Positions 5,692-39,141 of a stretch of DNA of 64,000 nt are shown here, in pieces. A program made the translations under genes and the position numbers. Source of the stretch: Flavobacteriales bacterium (GTDB taxonomy: Bacteria; Bacteroidota; Bacteroidia; Flavobacteriales_D; Crocinitomicaceae); assembly GCA_015665275.1 (NCBI GenBank), contig JADFAL010000007.1, forward strand, positions 43,818-107,817. Direction: 5' to 3'. The first letter of the stretch is position 1; each line of letters starts with the position of its first letter. The notes beneath the pieces are model-generated. The model saw only the letters and a list, made by a program, of their open reading frames with translations. It did no database searches and was not told the origin of the DNA.

Positions 5692-6410
5692 TGAAGAAGT
5701 TGGACATACTCGCTTTCGCAGCGCATCCGGACGATGTAGAACTCGCATGCTCGGGAACGGTAATCAAGCATATTGATGCTGGACTCAAAGTTGGAATCGT
5801 TGACTTAACGCAAGGTGAAATGGGCTCCCGTGGAACCATTGATACGCGTTACGAAGAGGCGGCAAATGCATCGGAGATTATGGGCGTAACCGAGCGCGTA
5901 AATCTTAAGATGGCTGATGGATTATTTCAAATTAACGAAGACAGCAAGCGATTAATCGTGGAACAAATTCGTCGATATCGACCGGAGATTGTTTTGGCAA
6001 ATGCAATTGACGATCGCCATCCCGATCACGGACGTGCATCCAAGTTAGTATCCGAGGCATGTTTCTTAGCAGGATTGGTTCAGTTTGAAACAGAGTGGGA
6101 GGGAACGAAGCAAGAACATTTTCGCCCGAAAGCGGTCTACCATTATATTCAGGATCGCTATATCAAGCCTGATTTTGTGATAGACGTGACTGGGGTTGCT
6201 GAACGAAAGATGGAAGCAATCAAAGCGTACAAGACGCAATTTTTCCAGCCCGACCAGGATGGACCCAAAACACCGATTTCAGGTGCGGATTTCATGGATT
6301 TCATCTGGGCACGGATGCGCGAGATGGGACGTCAGGCCGGATTTAGTTGTGGGGAAGGATTCACCGTAGAGCGATTTCCCGGTGTTAATTTATTAACGGA
6401 CTTGAAATAA
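5691..6410 (+). CDS. bshB1: Bacillithiol biosynthesis deacetylase BshB1
   Basis: LmbE/PIG-L family Zn deacetylase, 239 residues, the usual length. BshB1 removes the acetyl group from GlcNAc-malate in the second step of bacillithiol synthesis in the cytoplasm. The metal/catalytic AHPDD motif is at residues 11-15, and the DDRHPDHGRAS segment near 105 carries further metal and catalytic His. Bacillithiol is the low-molecular-weight thiol of many Bacteroidota. The start overlaps the ccsBA stop by one base, so translation is probably coupled. The bshA and bshC genes are not in the window. Confidence 0.92.
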   Translation: MKKLDILAFAAHPDDVELACSGTVIKHIDAGLKVGIVDLTQGEMGSRGTIDTRYEEAANASEIMGVTERVNLKMADGLFQINEDSKRLIVEQIRRYRPEIVLANAIDDRHPDHGRASKLVSEACFLAGLVQFETEWEGTKQEHFRPKAVYHYIQDRYIKPDFVIDVTGVAERKMEAIKAYKTQFFQPDQDGPKTPISGADFMDFIWARMREMGRQAGFSCGEGFTVERFPGVNLLTDLK

Positions 6411-6472
6411 TTCCACACGTCTTGTTAACATCATGTTAACGCTTACTTCTGGTTAAAAGGCAACACATCCCT

Positions 6473-6480
6473 TAGTTTTG
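6473..6480 (+). promoter_or_regulatory. -7 box for the gliding-type surface protein
   Basis: TAGTTTTG matches TAnnTTTG, 39 bases before the ATG at 6520. Two GTTAAC repeats at about 6424-6441 lie upstream; their role is unknown. Confidence 0.5.
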
Positions 6481-6519
6481 CGTCAGTATAGTGACGACTG
6501 ACGAGATTATGCAAAAACT

Positions 6520-9489
6520 ATGAGAACGACCTTATTTCTCCTTTTCTTCATGTGCCTGATAAATGCAAATGCACAGTTACCATGCTTTAATTCAAATACG
6601 ATTTTCTTTGAAGATTTTGAAGGCGGAAGTCCTGTTCAGGGAGCGGTTACTTCAAATATCTATGGAGGAGGAACTTATAACGGCGCAAATTACATTCTCA
6701 GCGGGAACTTGCACGGCTGGTTCAATGTTATCAATGGACTTGGCAATGTTGATGTATACGACAATCTTATTCCAGGTTTCTGTGTTGGATTACCAACCGA
6801 AGTTTCATTCTGGACACGTCAATCGTTTGGCGTTACGAACGTGACGTTTAGCGTGGAGGACAATACCGGGACTATACTAGCGAGCCAAACCTTAAATCTT
6901 ACAAATACCTACCAGCAAATCTTCTTCAACTTTACGGCAACAACAGCCGACCTTCGATTCATCATCCATTGCAATTCTACCGGTGGAAATGGCGTGGATA
7001 TTTGTGTAGAAGATATCTTGATGACACAATGCCCACCGGCTGGCGAAACGTTAGTCTATTCTGATTGCAACAATACAGGAACGGTAGATTTACATTCTTT
7101 ATTCTCTGTTGCTGTTGGTACAACGGGAACATGGTCTGGGCCTTCTGTCCTTGCCAACGGATATCTCGGGACGTTTGATCCTTCGGTCAATGCAAATGGA
7201 GTGTACAGCTATTCTGAGGGAACTGGATGTAGCGCTACAGTTTCGACTGCAGAAGTGAATTTCCCTGGAACCATCGATCTTGGTCCTGATACAACGGTTT
7301 GCGCCGGAGCCGCTGTGAATTTGGACGCTGGAGCTGGATTTGATAGTTATTCGTGGTCAAATGGAGCTACAACACAATCGATTAATGTATTGGCGCCGGG
7401 AACCTACAGTTTAGACGCTTCCGTGCAAATGGGAAATGTTATTCAGAACGGTGACTTTGAGGGAGGTCTAACAAATTCTGCAAATAATTTCACAACGGCG
7501 TATGTTCCTGGAACTGGTGGGGCATGGGGCTTGCTTTCAGCCCCTGGTCAGTATGCCATTTCAACCAGCCCTAATTTGGTTCATAACAATTTTGTTTTTT
7601 GCGGCGATCATACAACAGGAACTGGAAATATGTTCATCGCAAATGGATCTTCAACAGCCGGGACAGTGGTATGGAGCCAAACCGTTACTGTTTCCGCTAC
7701 AACAGATTATTTATTCTCGTTCTGGGCAACGAATGTGGTAAACGATCCCAATACATCCGATTTGCAACTGTACATCAATGGTGTAGCAATTGGTCCGGTG
7801 AATTCTACGACTCCATTTGGATGTAACTGGCAGCAAAGCAGCGATATTTGGAATTCAGGCGGCGCTACGTCGGCTGTTCTTGAAATTGTCAATCAAAGTA
7901 CGGCTGCAGGAGGAAATGATTTCGCTTTGGACGACATTTCATTCGGTCCCATTTGTATTGTATCAGACGCTATTGTCGTGAACCATCAAACGCCTGCACA
8001 GACGACAACCGTTGTCGATCTTTCCTGTCAAGGAGCTGCCGATGCTGAAATTCACATAGATAATGCTTTAGCGATTGAATACAGTTCGGATAATGGAGCT
8101 ACCTGGCAAGTAGATTCTTTCTTTCTGAATTTACCAGCGGGAACCTACGATATTTGTTCTCGAACTGCACTTGGATGTGATGTTTGTGAAACGGTAACCA
8201 TTGTGGATCCTGCCCCAGTAACTGTTGCCGTAAGCCCAGATGTCACAATTTGTCAAAATGGAAGTACAGTGATAACAGCAACGGGATCAGGCGGAAACAC
8301 TTTTGATTATCATTGGGACTTCACTGCGGACTTATCTGCAAATCAAACGGTTTCTCCAGCGCCAACAACAGGTCAAACAACGATAAGTTATACGGTATAC
8401 GCGGAAAATGAAAATGGATGTATTTCCGCACCTGAAATTATCAACGTAACCGTATTAGCGCCTTTATCAGCAACGATTACTCCAGCGCAGAGCATTTGTC
8501 CAGGAGAATCAGCAACTATTGCAGTCGTTGTTTCAGGAGGAGATGGAGGGCCTTACGCGTATGTTTGGGATTCTGGACAATCTACCGATCAAATTACGGT
8601 GTCTCCTACAGATACAACTATCTATACCGTTGTTATTGATGACGCTTGTGAGACAACTCCCATTACTTTGTCAATCGTTGTAAACGTAGCTCCAGAACCC
8701 GTTCCTTCCTATGAGATTATTAGTCCATTGCAATGTGAGCCTGGTATTTTCGAGATAGTTAATACTACAGATCCGAATTTGACAGATGCTATTGTTTGGA
8801 CCATCAACGGAACGGAAATATTTATCAATCAGGAAACCATTATCACGCAAGCGTACAATGCCGGGTCGTATGATTTGGAAATGACCGTGACCTCTCCGGA
8901 GGGATGTGTTGGAACGGCAATTTTTCCCGCAGCTTTGTATGTAGCACCAGCCCCAGTTGCAAATTTCATGTACAGTCCGAATCCACCAACGATGTTCAAT
9001 ACACAGGTACTATTCAACAATAATTCGGTTGGTGCCACTTCGTATGAATGGACTTTCGAACAAGGATCACCAGCGGTTTCTACTATGGAAAATCCAACTA
9101 CATTGTTCCCTGATGGACAGGTTGGATTGTACGAGACAACTTTGGTTGCCATTTCTGATTTGGGTTGCACAGACACCACGACTGTTGATATTCAGGTTTA
9201 TCCAGAAGTAATTTTATATGCTCCAAACACCTTTACTCCTGATGGAGATGAATTCAATCAAAGCTGGCACGTATTTATTGAAGGTGTTGATACCTACGAT
9301 TTTCAATTGACTGTATTCAACCGATGGGGGCAAATTATTTGGGAAACAAACGATCCGAATATTGGGTGGGATGCTACGTATAATGGACGCATGGTTCAGG
9401 ATGGAACTTACACCTGGTTCATTACAACACGCGATATTCTCAACGATAACAAGTACGAGTTTAACGGTCACGTAAATGTGATTCGATAA
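6520..9489 (+). CDS. Gliding-motility-type (type B CTD) T9SS surface protein
   Basis: 989 residues with a signal peptide ending near residue 18 (ANAQ). A carbohydrate-binding-like beta region (EDFEGG... near residue 28) and a second similar one (NGDFEGG, about 310-490) are followed by several Ig-like SprB-type repeats. A PKD domain lies at about 805-890 and a gliding-motility-associated C-terminal domain at about 900-989 (APNTFTPDGDEFN, FNRWGQIIWE, DGTYTW). That CTD (TIGR04131 type) directs export by T9SS. Role: cell-surface adhesion or matrix, inferred. It has its own promoter and a shared terminator with the convergent operon. Confidence 0.92.
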   Translation: MRTTLFLLFFMCLINANAQLPCFNSNTIFFEDFEGGSPVQGAVTSNIYGGGTYNGANYILSGNLHGWFNVINGLGNVDVYDNLIPGFCVGLPTEVSFWTRQSFGVTNVTFSVEDNTGTILASQTLNLTNTYQQIFFNFTATTADLRFIIHCNSTGGNGVDICVEDILMTQCPPAGETLVYSDCNNTGTVDLHSLFSVAVGTTGTWSGPSVLANGYLGTFDPSVNANGVYSYSEGTGCSATVSTAEVNFPGTIDLGPDTTVCAGAAVNLDAGAGFDSYSWSNGATTQSINVLAPGTYSLDASVQMGNVIQNGDFEGGLTNSANNFTTAYVPGTGGAWGLLSAPGQYAISTSPNLVHNNFVFCGDHTTGTGNMFIANGSSTAGTVVWSQTVTVSATTDYLFSFWATNVVNDPNTSDLQLYINGVAIGPVNSTTPFGCNWQQSSDIWNSGGATSAVLEIVNQSTAAGGNDFALDDISFGPICIVSDAIVVNHQTPAQTTTVVDLSCQGAADAEIHIDNALAIEYSSDNGATWQVDSFFLNLPAGTYDICSRTALGCDVCETVTIVDPAPVTVAVSPDVTICQNGSTVITATGSGGNTFDYHWDFTADLSANQTVSPAPTTGQTTISYTVYAENENGCISAPEIINVTVLAPLSATITPAQSICPGESATIAVVVSGGDGGPYAYVWDSGQSTDQITVSPTDTTIYTVVIDDACETTPITLSIVVNVAPEPVPSYEIISPLQCEPGIFEIVNTTDPNLTDAIVWTINGTEIFINQETIITQAYNAGSYDLEMTVTSPEGCVGTAIFPAALYVAPAPVANFMYSPNPPTMFNTQVLFNNNSVGATSYEWTFEQGSPAVSTMENPTTLFPDGQVGLYETTLVAISDLGCTDTTTVDIQVYPEVILYAPNTFTPDGDEFNQSWHVFIEGVDTYDFQLTVFNRWGQIIWETNDPNIGWDATYNGRMVQDGTYTWFITTRDILNDNKYEFNGHVNVIR

Positions 9490-33471: not shown

Positions 33472-34434
33472 TTAGCCTTTCAAAGAATTGCTGTTGTTTA
33501 AAAATGCTGATGCACATTCACGCACCCAAGCGCCTTCTTCATGTGCTTTAATATGATGTTCTAATCGCTGCTGATTGCAAGGGCCGTTTCCATTGACAAC
33601 TTGCCAGAATTCTTCCCAATCGATGTCGCTATGCTCGTAAGTTGGTTCTCCAAAGGAATCAGTTCCTGATACTTTTAAGTTCGAATCCGGAACTTTCAAA
33701 CCAATCAACTCTGCCTGCGGAACTGTTTTATTGATAAATTTCTCACGCAAACGATCGTTTGTCTCACGTTTGATTTTCCATTTCATCGCATTGCCTGTGT
33801 GCGCCGAGTCGCTATCGTGCGGTCCAAACATCATGAGGGCCGGCCACCACCATCTGTTAATTGCATCCTGAGCCATGCGCTGTTGATCCTTGGTTCCCTC
33901 CATCATCTTCCACATGATTTCATATCCCTGACGCTGGTGGAAGGACTCCTCTTTACAAATACGAACCATGGCTCTTGAATAAGGTCCGTAGGAAGCGCGT
34001 TGCAACGATACTTGATTGGTAATCGCTGCACCATCAACCAACCAGCCAATAGCACCGATATCCGCCCAGTTCAACGTCGGGTAATTGAAGACGCTTGCAT
34101 ATTTTGCTTTGCCTTCGTGTAACCATTGAATGTATTGGTCACGACTGACACCCAACGTTTCTGCGGCGCTGTACAAATACAGTCCATGCCCGCCCTCATC
34201 TTGAATTTTCGCCAATAGAATTTTTTTCGATCTCAGCGAAGGGGCTCTCGTAATCCAATTGCCTTCAGGTTGCATCCCGATAACTTCGGAGTGGGCATGT
34301 TGCGAAATCTGCCGGATCAAGTGCTTTCGGTAAGCCTCCGGCATCCAATCGCGTGGTTCGATTTTAGTTTCAGCTTCAATTTTCGTCTCAAAATCAGCGA
34401 GTAAAGTTGCATCGTCTAACAGCGTTTCTTTCAT
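33472..34434 (-). CDS. paaA: Phenylacetyl-CoA epoxidase catalytic subunit PaaA
   Basis: 320 residues from ATG 34434; upstream codons lie before the likely promoter. Ferritin-like di-iron oxygenase, with Fe ligands in [18 protein letters not shown] and [15 protein letters not shown]. It adds one O atom of O2 to the ring of phenylacetyl-CoA. First gene of paaA, Gre-like, paaB, paaC. Reductase PaaE and maturation protein PaaD must be encoded elsewhere. Confidence 0.95.
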
Positions 34435-34452
34435 AATGCATTGATTATGAAA

Positions 34453-34460
34453 CAAAGTAA
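34453..34460 (-). promoter_or_regulatory. Possible -7 box of the paa operon
   Basis: Minus strand TTACTTTG, one mismatch from TAnnTTTG, 18 bases upstream of the paaA ATG. No FNR-type box at the spacing used elsewhere. Confidence 0.4.
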
Positions 34461-34541
34461 CGTCTCCTTCCTTCGAATTAAAATGATTCAAAAAGGTGGA
34501 AAAACATGATAAAAATCAGTTATATGATGAATTCCAGAAAT

Positions 34542-34585
34542 GTGACCAAAGTCACTTTTCAATTGGTTGTATCAACGTACCTTTG
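34542..34585 (+). promoter_or_regulatory. FNR-type box and -7 element of the DUF983 gene
   Basis: GTGACCAAAGTCAC (34542-34555) is a perfect inverted repeat with core TGAC-N4-GTCA. -7 box TACCTTTG (34578-34585) follows with 33 bp centre-to-centre. ATG is 20 bases after the -7 box. The box is about 100 bp upstream of the paa promoter and less well placed for it. Confidence 0.65.
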
Positions 34586-34605
34586 CAGTAACAAAAGGGA
34601 ACAAC

Positions 34606-35025
34606 ATGAAGTTATTCGGAAAAGGAACAAAGTTTTATAGCATCTTGAAGATGCGATGTCCACGATGTCAGGAAGGGGAGTTTTTCGTTTCAACTCCTTA
34701 CAATTTAAAGAAAGCCGGGGATATTCATGAACATTGTCCTAAGTGCGACTTAAAGTATTCACGTGAGCCAGGTTTCTATTATGGAGCAATGTATGTAGCT
34801 TATGCCCTTGGCGTAGCACTCTTTGTTACTTTCTGGGCGTCGTTTAACTTGTTCCTACCTGAAGTTAGCGTCTGGTGGCAGGTTGGAATTATTTCCTTTG
34901 TTTCCATTGTTGCAGCACCATTGAATTACGCTTTATCCAAGATAATCTGGGCGAATTTGTTCATTCGTTTCGAAAAGAAAGAGGAAGACAAAGTCTCGTC
35001 TTCAGAGGCTGTTAGCGGAAGCTAA
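34606..35025 (+). CDS. DUF983 membrane protein
   Basis: 139 residues from ATG 34606; the TTG at 34567 lies upstream of the -7 box and is rejected. An N-terminal zinc-ribbon-like CPRC...CPKC (residues ~16 and ~41) precedes EPGFYYGAMYVAYALG and two membrane helices. The family is widespread but uncharacterised and often near oxidase genes. An FNR-type promoter suggests a role linked to low-oxygen respiration (inference). Confidence 0.88.
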   Translation: MKLFGKGTKFYSILKMRCPRCQEGEFFVSTPYNLKKAGDIHEHCPKCDLKYSREPGFYYGAMYVAYALGVALFVTFWASFNLFLPEVSVWWQVGIISFVSIVAAPLNYALSKIIWANLFIRFEKKEEDKVSSSEAVSGS

Positions 35026-35050: not shown

Positions 35051-35058
35051 TATATTTG
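35051..35058 (+). promoter_or_regulatory. -7 box of the sulfotransferase operon
   Basis: TATATTTG, exact TAnnTTTG, 26 bases before the ATG at 35085. Confidence 0.6.
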
Positions 35059-35084: not shown

Positions 35085-35642
35085 ATGTCTGATATTATAG
35101 TAGTTACAGGTCTCCCAAGATCAGGAACCTCCCTCATGATGCAAGTACTAAATAAAGCGAAAGTGCCGATTCTTCAGGATGGCGTTCGTGAAAGTGATAT
35201 CAGCAATCCGCAGGGATATTTCGAATTGGAGGATGTGAAAAACATTGTTGCAGATAATTCATTTTTAGATAACGCTGGAGGAAATGCGGTAAAGATAGTT
35301 GCGCCTCTTCCTATTTACATGAAGCCATCATTGAAATACAAGATGGTATTCATGCGTCGTGACCTTGAAGAAATTCTGCAATCGCAAGAAAAAATGTTGT
35401 TGAAAGATCAGACTTCAGAGCGCGAAAAATTCCGAACCATTTATGAGTTTCATTTGAAAAAAACGTACCGTTTTTTCGCAGAGAATAACATCCCTTTCAT
35501 TGACGTCAACTACAATGAATTGATGGCAAAGCCCATCACGACGCTAACTGCGGTAGTTGAATTTTTAGGATTGGATGCCGATGCAGAAGACCTGTCCGAA
35601 GTAGTCAACCCAGAATTATACCGAAACAGAAATGAAGGATAA
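35085..35642 (+). CDS. Sulfotransferase family P-loop protein
   Basis: 185 residues, a short sulfotransferase-like protein. The PAPS 5'-phosphosulfate loop VTGLPRSGTSLMMQVL is at residues ~7-22, followed by the GYFELEDVK region. The 3'-phosphate site region is at VFMRRDLEEILQSQEKML (~residue 88). No signal peptide, so cytoplasmic. The substrate is unknown. First gene of a three-gene operon; its last 11 bases overlap the next ORF. Confidence 0.85.
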   Translation: MSDIIVVTGLPRSGTSLMMQVLNKAKVPILQDGVRESDISNPQGYFELEDVKNIVADNSFLDNAGGNAVKIVAPLPIYMKPSLKYKMVFMRRDLEEILQSQEKMLLKDQTSEREKFRTIYEFHLKKTYRFFAENNIPFIDVNYNELMAKPITTLTAVVEFLGLDADAEDLSEVVNPELYRNRNEG

Positions 35643-35799
35643 GAAACCGGTTACAATTACCATGAACGGAAAACCGTTTGAAGTCCCTCCAGGAGGTACT
35701 TTGGGGATTTTTGCACTGGGAAGTGTAGGGATTCGCGCTTGGCGAAAAGCAAAAAAAGATCACGAAGAAGCTGAACAGAATGGCAAAAAAGAAGCGTAA
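35632..35799 (+). CDS. Small conserved-context ORF, 55 residues
   Basis: ATG 35632, TAA 35797-35799. It overlaps the sulfotransferase gene by 11 bases and the phosphodiesterase gene by 20. The N-terminus KKPVTITMNGKPFEVPPGG looks like a beta hairpin, followed by a hydrophobic stretch TLGIFALGSVGIRAW and a charged helical tail (RKAKKDHEEAEQNGKK). The overlaps on both sides and its full use of the gap argue for a translated gene. Function unknown; it could tether the two neighbours. Confidence 0.7.
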   Translation: MKDKKPVTITMNGKPFEVPPGGTLGIFALGSVGIRAWRKAKKDHEEAEQNGKKEA

Positions 35800-38230
35800 A
35801 GTATTGCTGGTTGGCTGGGATGCTGCCGATTGGAAAATGATCGATAAGTTAATGGCAGATGGACAATTACCAGCCATTAAAAGTGTAATTGATCGCGGTG
35901 TTCGTGGAAGGTTGGCAACTTTGGATCCGCCATTGTCTCCCATGTTATGGACCTCTATGGCAACGGGAGTTCGCCCATACAAACATGGCGTTCTTGGATT
36001 CGTAGAAAGCGATGGGAAAGGAGGGGTTCGTCCGATCAGTTCTAATGGTCGGAAAGTGGATGCCTTTTGGAATATGTTTACCAAGGAAGGATTGAAATCC
36101 AATGTGGTGGCATGGTGGCCATCAAATCCAGTGGAGAATATCAATGGAGTCATGGTCTCAAATCAGTTCCATCAGGAAAAGATGGGAAAAAATATTGTAG
36201 AAATTGACAAATGGACAGTGCCGAAAGGTTCAGTACATCCAGAGCATTTGGCAGAAGAGATGATTGATCTCAGATTGCATCCCTATGAAATTCCCGGCAA
36301 TCTTGTAATGCCTTTTGTCCCACGTGCTGTGGAATTAGACAAAAAGCAGGATAAACGATTGAATGTGATAGCGAAATTCATAGCGCATTCCTCTACAGTA
36401 CATGCTGTTGCAACAGAATTAGTAGATACAACGGATTGGGATATTACAGCAGTATATCATGATGCTTTGGATCATTTCTGCCATGGCTTTATGAAGTTTC
36501 ACCCTCCACAGATGGAAGGTTTGGATTCAGATCAATACGATTTATACCAACATGTCGTTACGGGAGCCTATATCTGGCATGATATGATGCTTGGACGATT
36601 GTTGAATCAAATAGATGAAGACACAACGGTAATAATTTGTTCAGATCACGGGTTCCACTCAGATCATTTGAGACCAAAGTATGTTCCCGATGTGCCCTCA
36701 GGTCCGGCAATTGAACACGCCCCATATGGAGTTTTCGTAGCAGCTGGTCCAGGGATTAAAAAAGGAGAAAAAATTCACGGTGCAAGTATTTTGGACATAA
36801 CTCCAACTTTATTGTCATTGTTCGACTTACCAATTGGTCGAGATATGGACGGTAAACCGTTAGTGGGGATATACGAAAATGCACCCGAGATAAAATATAT
36901 CGATAGTTGGAGTACTGATCTTCGTTTTGGTGGTGAGCTAGTTTTAAAAGATGGAGAAACAAGCGAAGCCACGAATGAAGCAGCCTTACAACAGTTAATC
37001 GATTTGGGTTATATCAATGACGTTGAAGTAAAAGAAGGGCAAGACATCGAAGAGGCAAGTAAAGAGTATTTGCTCAATGTAATTCGGGAGAATAACTTTT
37101 ATCTAGCCAAGTCATATGCTGCCGGAGGAAAATTCGATGAATGCCTTGAAATCTTATTAGAGATTGAGAATCGGGACAAACCAGATTTCCGTCATTTGAT
37201 TGAAATCATTAACTGCTCGGTACGCACAAGGCGATATGCTTTAGCTCAGGAATATTTAGTTTTTATTCGATCTAAAGATTTATTCGCAGCGAATTTTATT
37301 GGGCTTCTTGAGGCTAAAGTACACATCGGACTCAACAATCCTGCTGAAGCTTTAAAAGCTCTGGAAGAAGCCGGAGAGAACTTCCCGGATGCTCCAGATG
37401 TTCTTTTAGAATTGGGACGCTTGCTTAACATTCTAAGACAATCTGAACGTGCGAAAACCGTCTATGCCAAAATAATCAATATCGATCCTGACAATCCTTA
37501 CGGGCATTTAGGATATGGATTGGCTGCGATGAATCTAGAAGATTATGAAACTGCTCTAGAATACTTTTTGAATTCAGTAGATCGCTTTTACCATCAACCT
37601 ATTGCGCACCTTTATCTTGGTGAAACATTGGCGTTAATGAAGGAGTACGAAATGGCCAAAAGATCCTTCGAAGTGGTAGTTACCATGTCCCCCTCTTTAC
37701 CAAAACCTTATCGCTGGCTTTACGATTTAGCTGAACTTACCGAAAACGAAGAGGAGGTTGAGAAGTACAAAAATATGCTCAAAAATGTTATCGAAGGAGA
37801 GCGTATTGTAATCACTGGTCTTCCAGGTAAGAAATTGAGTGATACGCTCGCTCTATTATCTGGATCCGGGAAGTCAATTTTTGGCAAAGATGATTTACTC
37901 GGTGAAGAAATTGACGTAATGCGCAAAGATTGGATGGATCAAATTGACGCTGATTTGGTGTATGTTCCCTTGGGGCAGGTCGGAAGTATTCCGTCTAGGT
38001 TTAATTATCGTATTCTCTTTGTTAATGAATCAATTGAAGATGTTTCAATTTATTTGAATGAACTTGATAACCTTCGTTCCAAAACATTCAATTTGGAATT
38101 GATCAAAGCGCTGAGAGAACAACTTGGAGTGGTTCAGATATGGATGGGGCAACAACCAAACCTAGATCTTTTATACCTCGATAGAGCAGAAGATGCTGAA
38201 AGTGAGTTAGTACAGACCTTTATTTCATAA
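35780..38230 (+). CDS. Alkaline-phosphatase-superfamily phosphodiesterase with TPRs and a decayed sulfotransferase-like tail
   Basis: 816 residues, no signal peptide. Residues ~1-370 form a type I phosphodiesterase/nucleotide pyrophosphatase domain: LLVGWDAADWKMIDKL, DPPLSPMLWTSMATG, DITAVYHDALDHFCHGF, ICSDHGFHSDHLRP. TPR-type helices occupy ~430-675. The last ~140 residues start ERIVITGLPGKKLSDTL, which aligns with the P-loop start of the adjacent sulfotransferase but has lost the RSGTS loop. Probably acts on phosphate or sulfate esters in the cytoplasm. Third gene of the operon. Confidence 0.85.
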   Translation: MAKKKRKVLLVGWDAADWKMIDKLMADGQLPAIKSVIDRGVRGRLATLDPPLSPMLWTSMATGVRPYKHGVLGFVESDGKGGVRPISSNGRKVDAFWNMFTKEGLKSNVVAWWPSNPVENINGVMVSNQFHQEKMGKNIVEIDKWTVPKGSVHPEHLAEEMIDLRLHPYEIPGNLVMPFVPRAVELDKKQDKRLNVIAKFIAHSSTVHAVATELVDTTDWDITAVYHDALDHFCHGFMKFHPPQMEGLDSDQYDLYQHVVTGAYIWHDMMLGRLLNQIDEDTTVIICSDHGFHSDHLRPKYVPDVPSGPAIEHAPYGVFVAAGPGIKKGEKIHGASILDITPTLLSLFDLPIGRDMDGKPLVGIYENAPEIKYIDSWSTDLRFGGELVLKDGETSEATNEAALQQLIDLGYINDVEVKEGQDIEEASKEYLLNVIRENNFYLAKSYAAGGKFDECLEILLEIENRDKPDFRHLIEIINCSVRTRRYALAQEYLVFIRSKDLFAANFIGLLEAKVHIGLNNPAEALKALEEAGENFPDAPDVLLELGRLLNILRQSERAKTVYAKIINIDPDNPYGHLGYGLAAMNLEDYETALEYFLNSVDRFYHQPIAHLYLGETLALMKEYEMAKRSFEVVVTMSPSLPKPYRWLYDLAELTENEEEVEKYKNMLKNVIEGERIVITGLPGKKLSDTLALLSGSGKSIFGKDDLLGEEIDVMRKDWMDQIDADLVYVPLGQVGSIPSRFNYRILFVNESIEDVSIYLNELDNLRSKTFNLELIKALREQLGVVQIWMGQQPNLDLLYLDRAEDAESELVQTFIS

Positions 38231-38307: not shown

Positions 38308-39141
38308 ATGAAGAAAGAATTACAAAACAGATTATCTAAGTATACTGCTGCTGCAGCTGCGGTTACTTTGGGAGCGACAGGAGCGAACGCTCAGATCGTT
38401 TACACAGATGTAGATCCAGATTTCAGTCACCCAGGTGACGAAGTAGGATTCGGATTGGACATGAACAATGATGGAAACTTTGATTTCATTATTGCTTCTG
38501 CTGATACGATTGTAACTTCTGGTCGTGTTCGTTACACTGTTGTTGCTGGATACGGTACTCAAGCTGCTGCAAATGCTATCGCTGGTGAAACGCCATCTGC
38601 TTATAACTACGCATTGGCTTTGGATATGGGAACTATGATCGACAACACGTTGAACTGGATCGCAGCTACAAACACAATGGCTTACAGTGTAGATTCTGCA
38701 AACCCATATGCTGAAAACTGGAATGGAGTTACTGATAAGTACCTAGGATTGCGTTTCAATGCAGGTGGTAACGATTACTACGGATGGGCACGTATGGATG
38801 TTCAAGCGATTGCAGATGCATGGACTTTGAAAGATTACGCTTACCAAGCTGGACAAACTGGAATCGAGGCTGGAGCAACTGCTTTCATCGAGGAAGGAAC
38901 TATGGATCAGTACGTACACTTCATCAACCAAGCAGATAACTCTGTAATGGTTCGTATGAACGAAGCTATCACTGGAGCTAACGTAACTGTTGTTTCTGCA
39001 TCAGGACAAGTTGTTCAGTCTGGAGCTGTTAACGGATCCGAGTTCGTAGTAGATATGAACGGTCTTGCAGGAGGAATTTACATGATCAATGTAACTTCTG
39101 AGCAAGGATCAATCACGAAAAAAATGAGCGTAGCGAACTAA
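38308..39141 (+). CDS. T9SS type A sorting domain protein
   Basis: 277 residues. Signal peptide ending GANAQ near residue 29. The central beta domain has the phrase KYLGLRFNAGGNDYYGWARMDV, as in a group of small secreted Bacteroidota proteins. C-terminal type A CTD (VTVVSASGQVVQSG, LAGGIYMINV, KKMSVAN). Codon choice is strongly biased to GCT/GGA/CGT and AAC, unlike its neighbours, which suggests high expression. Function unknown. Confidence 0.9.
   Translation: MKKELQNRLSKYTAAAAAVTLGATGANAQIVYTDVDPDFSHPGDEVGFGLDMNNDGNFDFIIASADTIVTSGRVRYTVVAGYGTQAAANAIAGETPSAYNYALALDMGTMIDNTLNWIAATNTMAYSVDSANPYAENWNGVTDKYLGLRFNAGGNDYYGWARMDVQAIADAWTLKDYAYQAGQTGIEAGATAFIEEGTMDQYVHFINQADNSVMVRMNEAITGANVTVVSASGQVVQSGAVNGSEFVVDMNGLAGGIYMINVTSEQGSITKKMSVAN

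Follow-up and report, generated by a model that had tools for sequence, protein, structure and literature searches.

The DNA under study is a window of 64,000 nucleotides (the whole stretch analysed; contig JADFAL010000007.1 of assembly GCA_015665275.1) from a Flavobacteriales bacterium of the family Crocinitomicaceae. Its subject is a run of four + strand genes that encode, in order, a stand-alone sulfotransferase, a 55-residue peptide, a phosphodiesterase-tetratricopeptide repeat (TPR) protein ending in a decayed sulfotransferase domain, and a secreted companion protein (Table 1). The first three open reading frames (ORFs) overlap end to end, as had been claimed in an earlier interpretation of the locus (here termed the sequence-only reading); the overlaps measure 11 and 20 bases, and the companion gene starts 77 bases past the end of the third. 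The three genes that were described then are as claimed; what was missed is the fourth gene, whose product carries a sorting signal of the type IX secretion system (T9SS), and the likeness of the 55-residue ORF to a PEP-CTERM tail, two features that we regard as more informative than the rest. A neighbourhood check across relatives found the gene order kept; a lack of such conservation would have refuted the sequence-only reading. The phosphodiesterase-TPR-sulfotransferase enzyme and the secreted companion together form a conserved module, and the window holds one form of it.

Table 1. Features of the locus, numbered by position in the window
Feature	Position	Strand	Basis or remark
Bacteroidota -7 element match TAnnTTTG, TATATTTG	35051..35058	+	26 bases before the sulfotransferase gene; weak
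Stand-alone sulfotransferase gene, 185 residues	35085..35642	+	ORF and Pfam match
P-loop GLPRSGTS, residues 9-16 of the sulfotransferase	35109..35132	+	Alignment
55-residue ORF, PEP-CTERM-like detached peptide	35632..35799	+	ORF and family profile
Conserved core VPPGGTLGIFALGSVGIRAWRK, residues 18-39 of the 55-residue ORF	35683..35748	+	Family alignment
Phosphodiesterase-TPR-decayed sulfotransferase protein, 816 residues	35780..38230	+	ORF, Pfam, structure model
Alkaline-phosphatase-superfamily domain (PF01663)	35780..36949	+	Pfam, residue conservation
TPR superhelix, residues about 423-670	37046..37789	+	Pfam, predicted structure
Decayed sulfotransferase domain, residues 671-816, conserved W..QQPNLD motif	37790..38227	+	Profiles, alignment, model
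Companion: secreted protein, 277 residues, T9SS type A sorting domain	38308..39141	+	Pfam, NCBIfam, profile homology
Extended signal-peptide motif RLSKYTAAAAA, companion residues 8-18	38329..38361	+	Consensus (K/R)LxxY(S/T)AxAGA, by eye
T9SS C-terminal sorting domain (Por_Secre_tail), companion residues 210-275	38935..39132	+	Pfam, NCBIfam

The 185-residue protein matches the sulfotransferase family PF13469 with 48.3 bits (cut-off 27). Its P-loop, which we take to be the 5'-phosphosulfate-binding loop, is intact, the second conserved R...S motif is present (R92, S100), and residues R92, E96, S100 and Q101 are invariant in all 17 aligned sulfotransferases; the P-loop and the R...S motif are presumably the functional motifs of the family. 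Judged by these features the protein looks like a working enzyme, and transfer dependent on 3'-phosphoadenosine-5'-phosphosulfate (PAPS) is predicted for it. In a phylogenetic tree, the ten standalone sulfotransferases of the window's kin form a single clade (support 100/100), while the deeper forks are supported 59/92 and the bootstrap is not fully settled; descent of the standalone gene from the fused domain and arrival from another source both fit this tree.

The 816-residue protein begins with a PF01663 domain (88.1 bits, cut-off 23), after which come the TPRs; the sulfatase family PF00884 also just exceeds its cut-off on this protein (25.6 versus 25 bits). Residues D14, S53, D231, H235, D289, H290 and H313 are invariant in 30 of 30 homologues, and we assume that these seven are the metal ligands and nucleophile expected of a two-metal phosphodiesterase. 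In the one alignment that covers the nucleophile, S53 is paired with a threonine of phosphonoacetate hydrolase, presumably the nucleophile of that enzyme. The full-length model is well ordered (predicted local distance difference test (pLDDT) 89.6; predicted template modelling score (pTM) 0.83) and comprises the catalytic domain, the TPR superhelix and a tail. No signal peptide is apparent by eye, and the enzyme is therefore considered to be cytoplasmic.

Profile comparison shows that the last ∼145 residues of the 816-residue protein are a degraded sulfotransferase domain. The resemblance quoted in the sequence-only reading was unconvincing taken alone, because pairwise BLASTP of the 816-residue against the 185-residue protein returns only a 21-residue VTGLP stretch at E 0.29; a Pfam scan of the tail likewise gave nothing at E 1. 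The profile comparison bears the claim out. When nine decayed tails from the window's kin were aligned to 26 sulfotransferase sequences using hhalign, a probability of 97.8% was obtained (E 1.2e-12, 137 collinear columns), with both of the originally quoted blocks in register. The same tail profile gave 98.4% against the fused sulfotransferases alone and 96.2% against the standalone ones, and the best of 100 column shuffles reached 2.1%. The P-loop had been said to be lost, and indeed its Arg and Thr, invariant in the 17 aligned sulfotransferases, are missing from 14 of 14 tails, with a Gly kept in one or two of these. In comparisons with three relatives the tail is also the most divergent part: its identity is 42-55%, whereas the catalytic domain keeps 74-78% and the separate sulfotransferase 70-88%.

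An AlphaFold model of the tail alone has a P-loop fold (pLDDT 90.9). A Foldseek search with this model gave no match at E 0.001 or better, with kinases at the top of the list, and structure comparison against the PDB placed adenylate, shikimate and other kinases at Z 8 to 10 (nucleotide kinases up to 10.1) and the sulfotransferases SgdX2 and Stf0 at Z 8.8 and 8.6, tied with the later kinase rows. Kinases and sulfotransferases tie, and therefore the fold alone does not decide the family of the tail. That the tail is an unrelated P-loop domain sharing merely a common fold, as the level scores of kinases and sulfotransferases might suggest, is nevertheless hardly credible: the profile match is collinear across the domain, intermediates exist in relatives (L008, L009 and the second copy of L032), and an intact sulfotransferase sits at the same place in 36 of the 50 Bacteroidota homologues.

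These homologues come from a survey of 83 phosphodiesterase genes at 79 loci (50 genes from Bacteroidota and 33 from other phyla), each scoring at least 400 bits with the phosphodiesterase profile. Locus L102, from the same genome as L031, was left out of the table, and paralogues below 400 bits (in L034, L037 and L095, and an unmatched one in L094) were not counted; an intact fused sulfotransferase was defined as one of at least 100 bits. Among the Bacteroidota genes, 36 have an intact tail and 14 a decayed one. A separate sulfotransferase gene lies in the examined stretch of every decayed-tail copy (14/14), as against 2 of the 36 intact-tail copies, and one of those two (L035) is a gene end cut by a contig border. 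Outside Bacteroidota (Planctomycetota, Verrucomicrobiota and one Pseudomonadota) the fused domain is intact in 14 genes, absent from 18 and weak in one, and intact fusions are thus found in 50 of the 83 relatives. The earlier claim of a decayed copy beside an intact one accordingly takes its place in a natural series, which in the relatives runs from an intact fused domain through partly decayed forms to a pseudo-enzyme accompanied by a separate gene. The decayed domain is retained in the window's kin, and at this level the series holds.

Several loci carry more than one copy. L032, L099 and L100 hold a tandem pair of phosphodiesterase genes, both with decayed tails, beside a single standalone sulfotransferase gene, and every gene of the pair is accompanied by a free peptide ORF and a companion of its own. 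L034, L037, L094 and L095 contain, next to the counted gene and in tandem with it, a more diverged phosphodiesterase-TPR-sulfotransferase copy, which has a free peptide ORF upstream in three of these loci (L034, L094 and L095). In a verrucomicrobial gene (L061, 6677-9043, + strand) all that is left of the sulfotransferase is a weak remnant (33 bits), and its stretch contains no separate sulfotransferase; this is possibly an independent case of decay.

One explanation for the retention of a decayed domain would be that it is a sensor, which has stopped transferring sulfate but binds PAPS or PAP and gates the phosphodiesterase, so that the operon tunes sulfation to donor supply. The P-loop fold kept by the high-confidence model of the tail, the conserved W..QQPN motif and the invariance of the phosphodiesterase catalytic residues would all suit such a device. 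The nucleotide-binding loop is, however, lost from every decayed tail, which makes nucleotide binding doubtful, and the 50 relatives with an intact fusion carry a transferase instead; a sensor is regarded as quite unlikely.

The 55-residue ORF belongs to a family with the core VPxxGxLGLLALGxVGxRAWREA. An ORF of this kind is found upstream of the phosphodiesterase gene, on the same strand and within 700 bases, in 39 of the 50 Bacteroidota cases and in none of the 33 others. It is free-standing rather than the C-terminal tail of a secreted protein. Alignment (hhalign) of 40 free-ORF cores with 34 companion tails from outside Bacteroidota gave 97.2% and a score of 45.5; the highest score was 15.3 in 150 full shuffles and 33.4 in 150 shuffles confined to six-column blocks. 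When the free-ORF profile was run against the C-termini of 1199 ORFs from the loci of other phyla, the top 18 places went to companions; these ORFs are from loci chosen around the enzyme, and companions are over-represented among their secreted proteins. The median score of the profile is 8.9 bits for the companion tails and 0.1 bits for other PEP-CTERM tails (34 versus 37 sequences, ranges overlapping; p 0.003 after removal of the L131 rows, which are companions themselves, and p 0.015 with them). One protein encoded far from the module, L137, reaches 23 bits, and without it the highest of the remaining 35 is 13.8; the profile is only partly specific to companion tails as opposed to any PEP-CTERM tail. 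At L072, L092 and L108 the order on one strand is companion, free ORF, phosphodiesterase, such that the free ORF lies where the companion tail would sit in other phyla; the window differs in that its companion is downstream of the phosphodiesterase gene.

Taken together, the 55-residue ORF resembles a PEP-CTERM tail, and we interpret it as either a derivative or an imitation of one. The window's own genome (G000, 96% complete) has no match to exosortase (PF09721) or to PEP-CTERM. The ORF could alternatively be a spurious reading frame or a fragment of a ferredoxin-like protein, given that 4 of 14 members match Fer2_4 below its cut-off (best E 0.0011), but this is very unlikely. In addition to its recurrence upstream of most Bacteroidota enzymes, the frame has a non-synonymous rate (dN) well below the synonymous rate (dS) in the five comparisons with an estimable dS (dN 0.28-0.41 versus dS 1.1-1.6 in three of them). 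The Fer2_4 identity was rejected: the window copy has no cysteine, and distant members of the family lack the Fer2_4-like part.

The sorting domain of the window companion scores 34.2 bits with TIGR04183 (cut-off 23) and 31.4 bits with PF18962 (cut-off 27). A profile built from 16 Bacteroidota T9SS companions recovered PEP-CTERM proteins upstream of the phosphodiesterase at 8 of 13 non-Bacteroidota loci (best E 3e-14), and by this profile match the window companion is homologous to PEP-CTERM proteins encoded beside the same phosphodiesterase in other phyla. Companions were identified by profile within 3 kb of 40 of the 50 Bacteroidota genes, some with low scores (20-35 bits) and some training sequences lying in the counted loci, and of 21 of the 33 others. 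Inclusion of same-strand ORFs within 1.5 kb that have a PEP-CTERM-like tail, a pattern defined by a rule written for this survey, adds five and brings the latter figure to 26. The companion body is recognisable across lineages, while the C-terminal sorting signal varies between PEP-CTERM, T9SS and, once, IPTL-CTERM. The last of these ends the companion of L096 (8885-10105, - strand), a locus from the Chitinophagales-centred survey; it scores 28.7 bits with PF18203 (cut-off 20.8), and the NCBIfam model falls just below its own cut-off. When eight companions and that of the window were scanned, no match over cut-off was found outside the sorting signals; weak matches of the body exist, such as that of L054 to the EDSAP-1 PEP-CTERM family (20.8 bits, cut-off 100).

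Many companions also carry an unusual signal-peptide motif, (K/R)LxxY(S/T)AxAGA. As a loose rule, applied without a background count, the pattern is matched in 44 of 66 rows from Bacteroidota and in 15 of the 34 from elsewhere. An N-terminal profile made from Bacteroidota companions only ranks eight companions first among the same 1199 ORFs, most of the 34 non-Bacteroidota companions scoring too low to count by themselves. The likely cleavage site in Bacteroidota, placed by eye, leaves QIVYTDVDPD at the mature end of the companion, in agreement with the published Q-rule (PMC5837995). The L137 protein, a PEP-CTERM protein, combines the companion signal-peptide motif (RRLAAYSA) with a tail that closely resembles the free peptide, and no companion is seen beside the enzyme (L052) of its genome, G589. 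Clients of the companion type may therefore be encoded away from the module.

The module is patchily distributed. It was found in 2 of 395 genomes sampled across the phylum of the window, 34 of 248 genomes of one order (centred on Chitinophagales), 11 of 240 Verrucomicrobiota and 1 of 248 genomes of one alphaproteobacterial family; in Planctomycetota it was found in 16 of 294 at a laxer threshold, six of which exceed 400 bits. These counts include the starting genomes. Clustering of 910 ORFs from 80 loci showed that, beyond the module's own families, none recurs at loci outside close relatives; the widest such cluster occurs in eight loci, all of them close relatives of the window.

APS (adenosine 5'-phosphosulfate) kinase makes the sulfate donor PAPS. 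All 11 carriers of the module that were checked have the kinase, compared with 12 of 49 non-carriers from the same family, where two of the matches are weak (Fisher 3.9e-6; the 49 were chosen out of 89, from the more complete genomes). At L108 (genome G010), an APS kinase ORF (5926-6450, + strand) converges with a four-base overlap on the phosphodiesterase gene (6447-9020, - strand), whose product has an intact fused sulfotransferase. No other locus among L031-L110 has an APS kinase, and this is the sole direct physical link to PAPS synthesis that was seen.

Exosortase shows a second association. All 13 non-Bacteroidota carriers of a first set and all 16 carriers of a second have it (G505 being in both), as against 17 of 40 non-carriers, namely 4 of 20 Planctomycetota and 13 of 20 Verrucomicrobiota (Fisher 3.9e-5 overall; 9e-4 and 0.06, respectively, for the two phyla apart). 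The non-carriers were the first 20 listed of each phylum, and carrier G506 was left out. Exosortase is absent from 14 rows of the window's kin (one genome appearing twice), below cut-off in the genome of L033, and weakly present, over cut-off, in three Chitinophagales. This association can be read in favour of an enzyme whose substrate is a small molecule, lipid or glycan, for example an anchor or surface polysaccharide of sorted proteins, with the companion merely co-expressed. According to PMC7468200, both T9SS and PEP-CTERM sorting are thought to end in attachment to another compound, the partner being a glycolipid for T9SS and unidentified for PEP-CTERM; there, the T9SS anchoring sugars and PEP-CTERM systems are linked through other genes. 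We consider such a small-molecule substrate rather unlikely. One companion family recurs beside the module where no further family does so beyond close relatives, and the extended signal-peptide motif common to companions from different phyla would not be needed by a mere passenger, although a substrate encoded elsewhere is still compatible with both facts.

The anatomy, co-occurrence and conservation of the module are observed; for the substrate and reaction of the enzyme, we infer modification of the companion itself. The reading favoured here, held tentatively and with slightly more doubt than belief, is that a cytoplasmic, PAPS-using complex modifies the secreted companion before export. 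The TPR superhelix would bind the companion precursor, and the attached or separate sulfotransferase would use PAPS to sulfate it before export by the Sec route, with tyrosine as the first candidate acceptor. The phosphodiesterase domain might hydrolyse the nucleotide by-product or another phosphodiester. In the form seen in the window, the 55-residue peptide would be a former docking tail that is now supplied in trans, and the decayed domain would persist as the place where the separate sulfotransferase docks. An extension of this proposal, which we deem unlikely, is that PEP-CTERM-type tails also serve as docking handles for the cytosolic phosphodiesterase-TPR-sulfotransferase, which would act before export on a surface-protein class of its own, that the handle survives as a free peptide of ∼55 residues after the move to T9SS in Bacteroidota, and that protein sulfation in four phyla (one by a single genome) is independent of the sorting system.

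In favour of modification of the companion before export, we count the profile match of the decayed tail, the separate sulfotransferase gene in the stretch of every decayed-tail copy from Bacteroidota, the frequent companion near the enzyme gene, the lack of other families that recur beyond close relatives, the co-occurrence with APS kinase, the likeness of the 55-residue family to companion tails, the N-terminal profile result and the single clade of standalone sulfotransferases. A number of observations weigh against it. The companion may be co-regulated with the enzyme rather than modified by it, and for 10 of the 50 Bacteroidota genes and 7 of the 33 others the search around the enzyme gene yielded no companion. 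The counts for co-occurrence with APS kinase and exosortase are uncorrected for relatedness. The N-terminal test is partly circular, in that the 16-sequence companion profile covers the N-terminus and the companion labels derive in part from the same regions. Among the 19 non-Bacteroidota enzymes that have no intact fused sulfotransferase, nine have a separate one in the stretch and ten do not. All 14 decayed copies are close kin of the window, their separate sulfotransferases form one clade, and tandem phosphodiesterase copies share a single sulfotransferase; the number of independent events behind the decayed copies is therefore small and far below 14. Finally, the 55-residue ORF is below the curated PEP-CTERM cut-offs (PF07589, 13.5 versus 20.7 bits; NF050011, 17.5 versus 24), and 36 of 40 free-ORF cores have their hydrophobic stretch broken by a charged or His residue, compared with 10 of 34 companion tails. 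For these two reasons the ORF is not filed as a PEP-CTERM protein, and because of the interruption the peptide is probably not a membrane anchor.

If the proposal of modification before export is correct, bacteria of several phyla would sulfate, or otherwise modify, surface proteins by a system that is portable between two unrelated sorting systems. The PEP-CTERM-like sequence would gain a function besides exosortase cleavage, and clients could be named by the combination of signal-peptide motif and tail. No description of the module was found in the open-licence literature, as judged mostly by titles and the openings of abstracts. PEP-CTERM and sulfotransferase are both mentioned in PMC8776678, in unrelated places.

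In the window, a DUF983 gene lies just upstream of the module (34567-35025) and a divergent phenylacetate-degradation (PaaA/PaaC) gene beyond it (33472-34491); among the loci compared both recur in close relatives only, and they therefore probably do not belong to the module. Of the named relatives found, Fluviicola sp. XM-24bin1 (Crocinitomicaceae) is the nearest, with 73% identity over the best segment of the 816-residue protein. TAnnTTTG is the -7 promoter consensus of Bacteroidota; since matches to it are not enriched in the window (43 found versus 57.5 expected), the site before the first gene is weak evidence for a promoter. Promoter-like sites are likewise not in excess (7 versus 11.1 expected), and six terminator-like sites were found where 2.9 were expected. 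A role in anti-phage defence was considered and set aside, as none of the three operon proteins matches a PADLOC model at E 0.01.

The module can be compared with several known systems. In TPR-containing sulfotransferases, TPRs are found next to a sulfotransferase domain; the module adds an N-terminal phosphodiesterase, and its transferase may be encoded separately. Nucleotide pyrophosphatase/phosphodiesterase and phosphonoacetate hydrolase (PF01663; PDB 7n1s, 3szy) are of the same superfamily as the window enzyme, which differs by its predicted serine nucleophile and by its fusion to TPRs and a sulfotransferase; sulfatases of the superfamily are equally near by profile and fold. The bacterial tyrosine sulfotransferase RaxST and its exported peptide RaxX (PMC4216712 and PMC6637879) likewise pair a sulfotransferase gene with an exported polypeptide. 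That likeness is a works-like analogy only: RaxX takes a type I secretion route, the openings of the two abstracts mention no phosphodiesterase or TPR partner, and sulfation by the module is a prediction. With respect to the PEP-CTERM/exosortase system (PMC1569441; PF07589, PF09721), the companions of Planctomycetota and Verrucomicrobiota have a PEP-CTERM tail, over the Pfam cut-off in 3 of 3 scanned, and the carriers tested have exosortase; the tail of the alphaproteobacterial neighbour, by contrast, fits only the survey's own rule and neither Pfam nor NCBIfam, and the window genome has neither part of that system. The founding PEP-CTERM paper (PMC1569441) names a TPR protein, PrsT, a lipoprotein, and its text has no word starting with 'sulfo' or 'phosphodiesterase'. 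As a T9SS cargo with a type A sorting domain (TIGR04183), the window companion fits the known pattern, and the unusual part is the enzyme gene that adjoins it.

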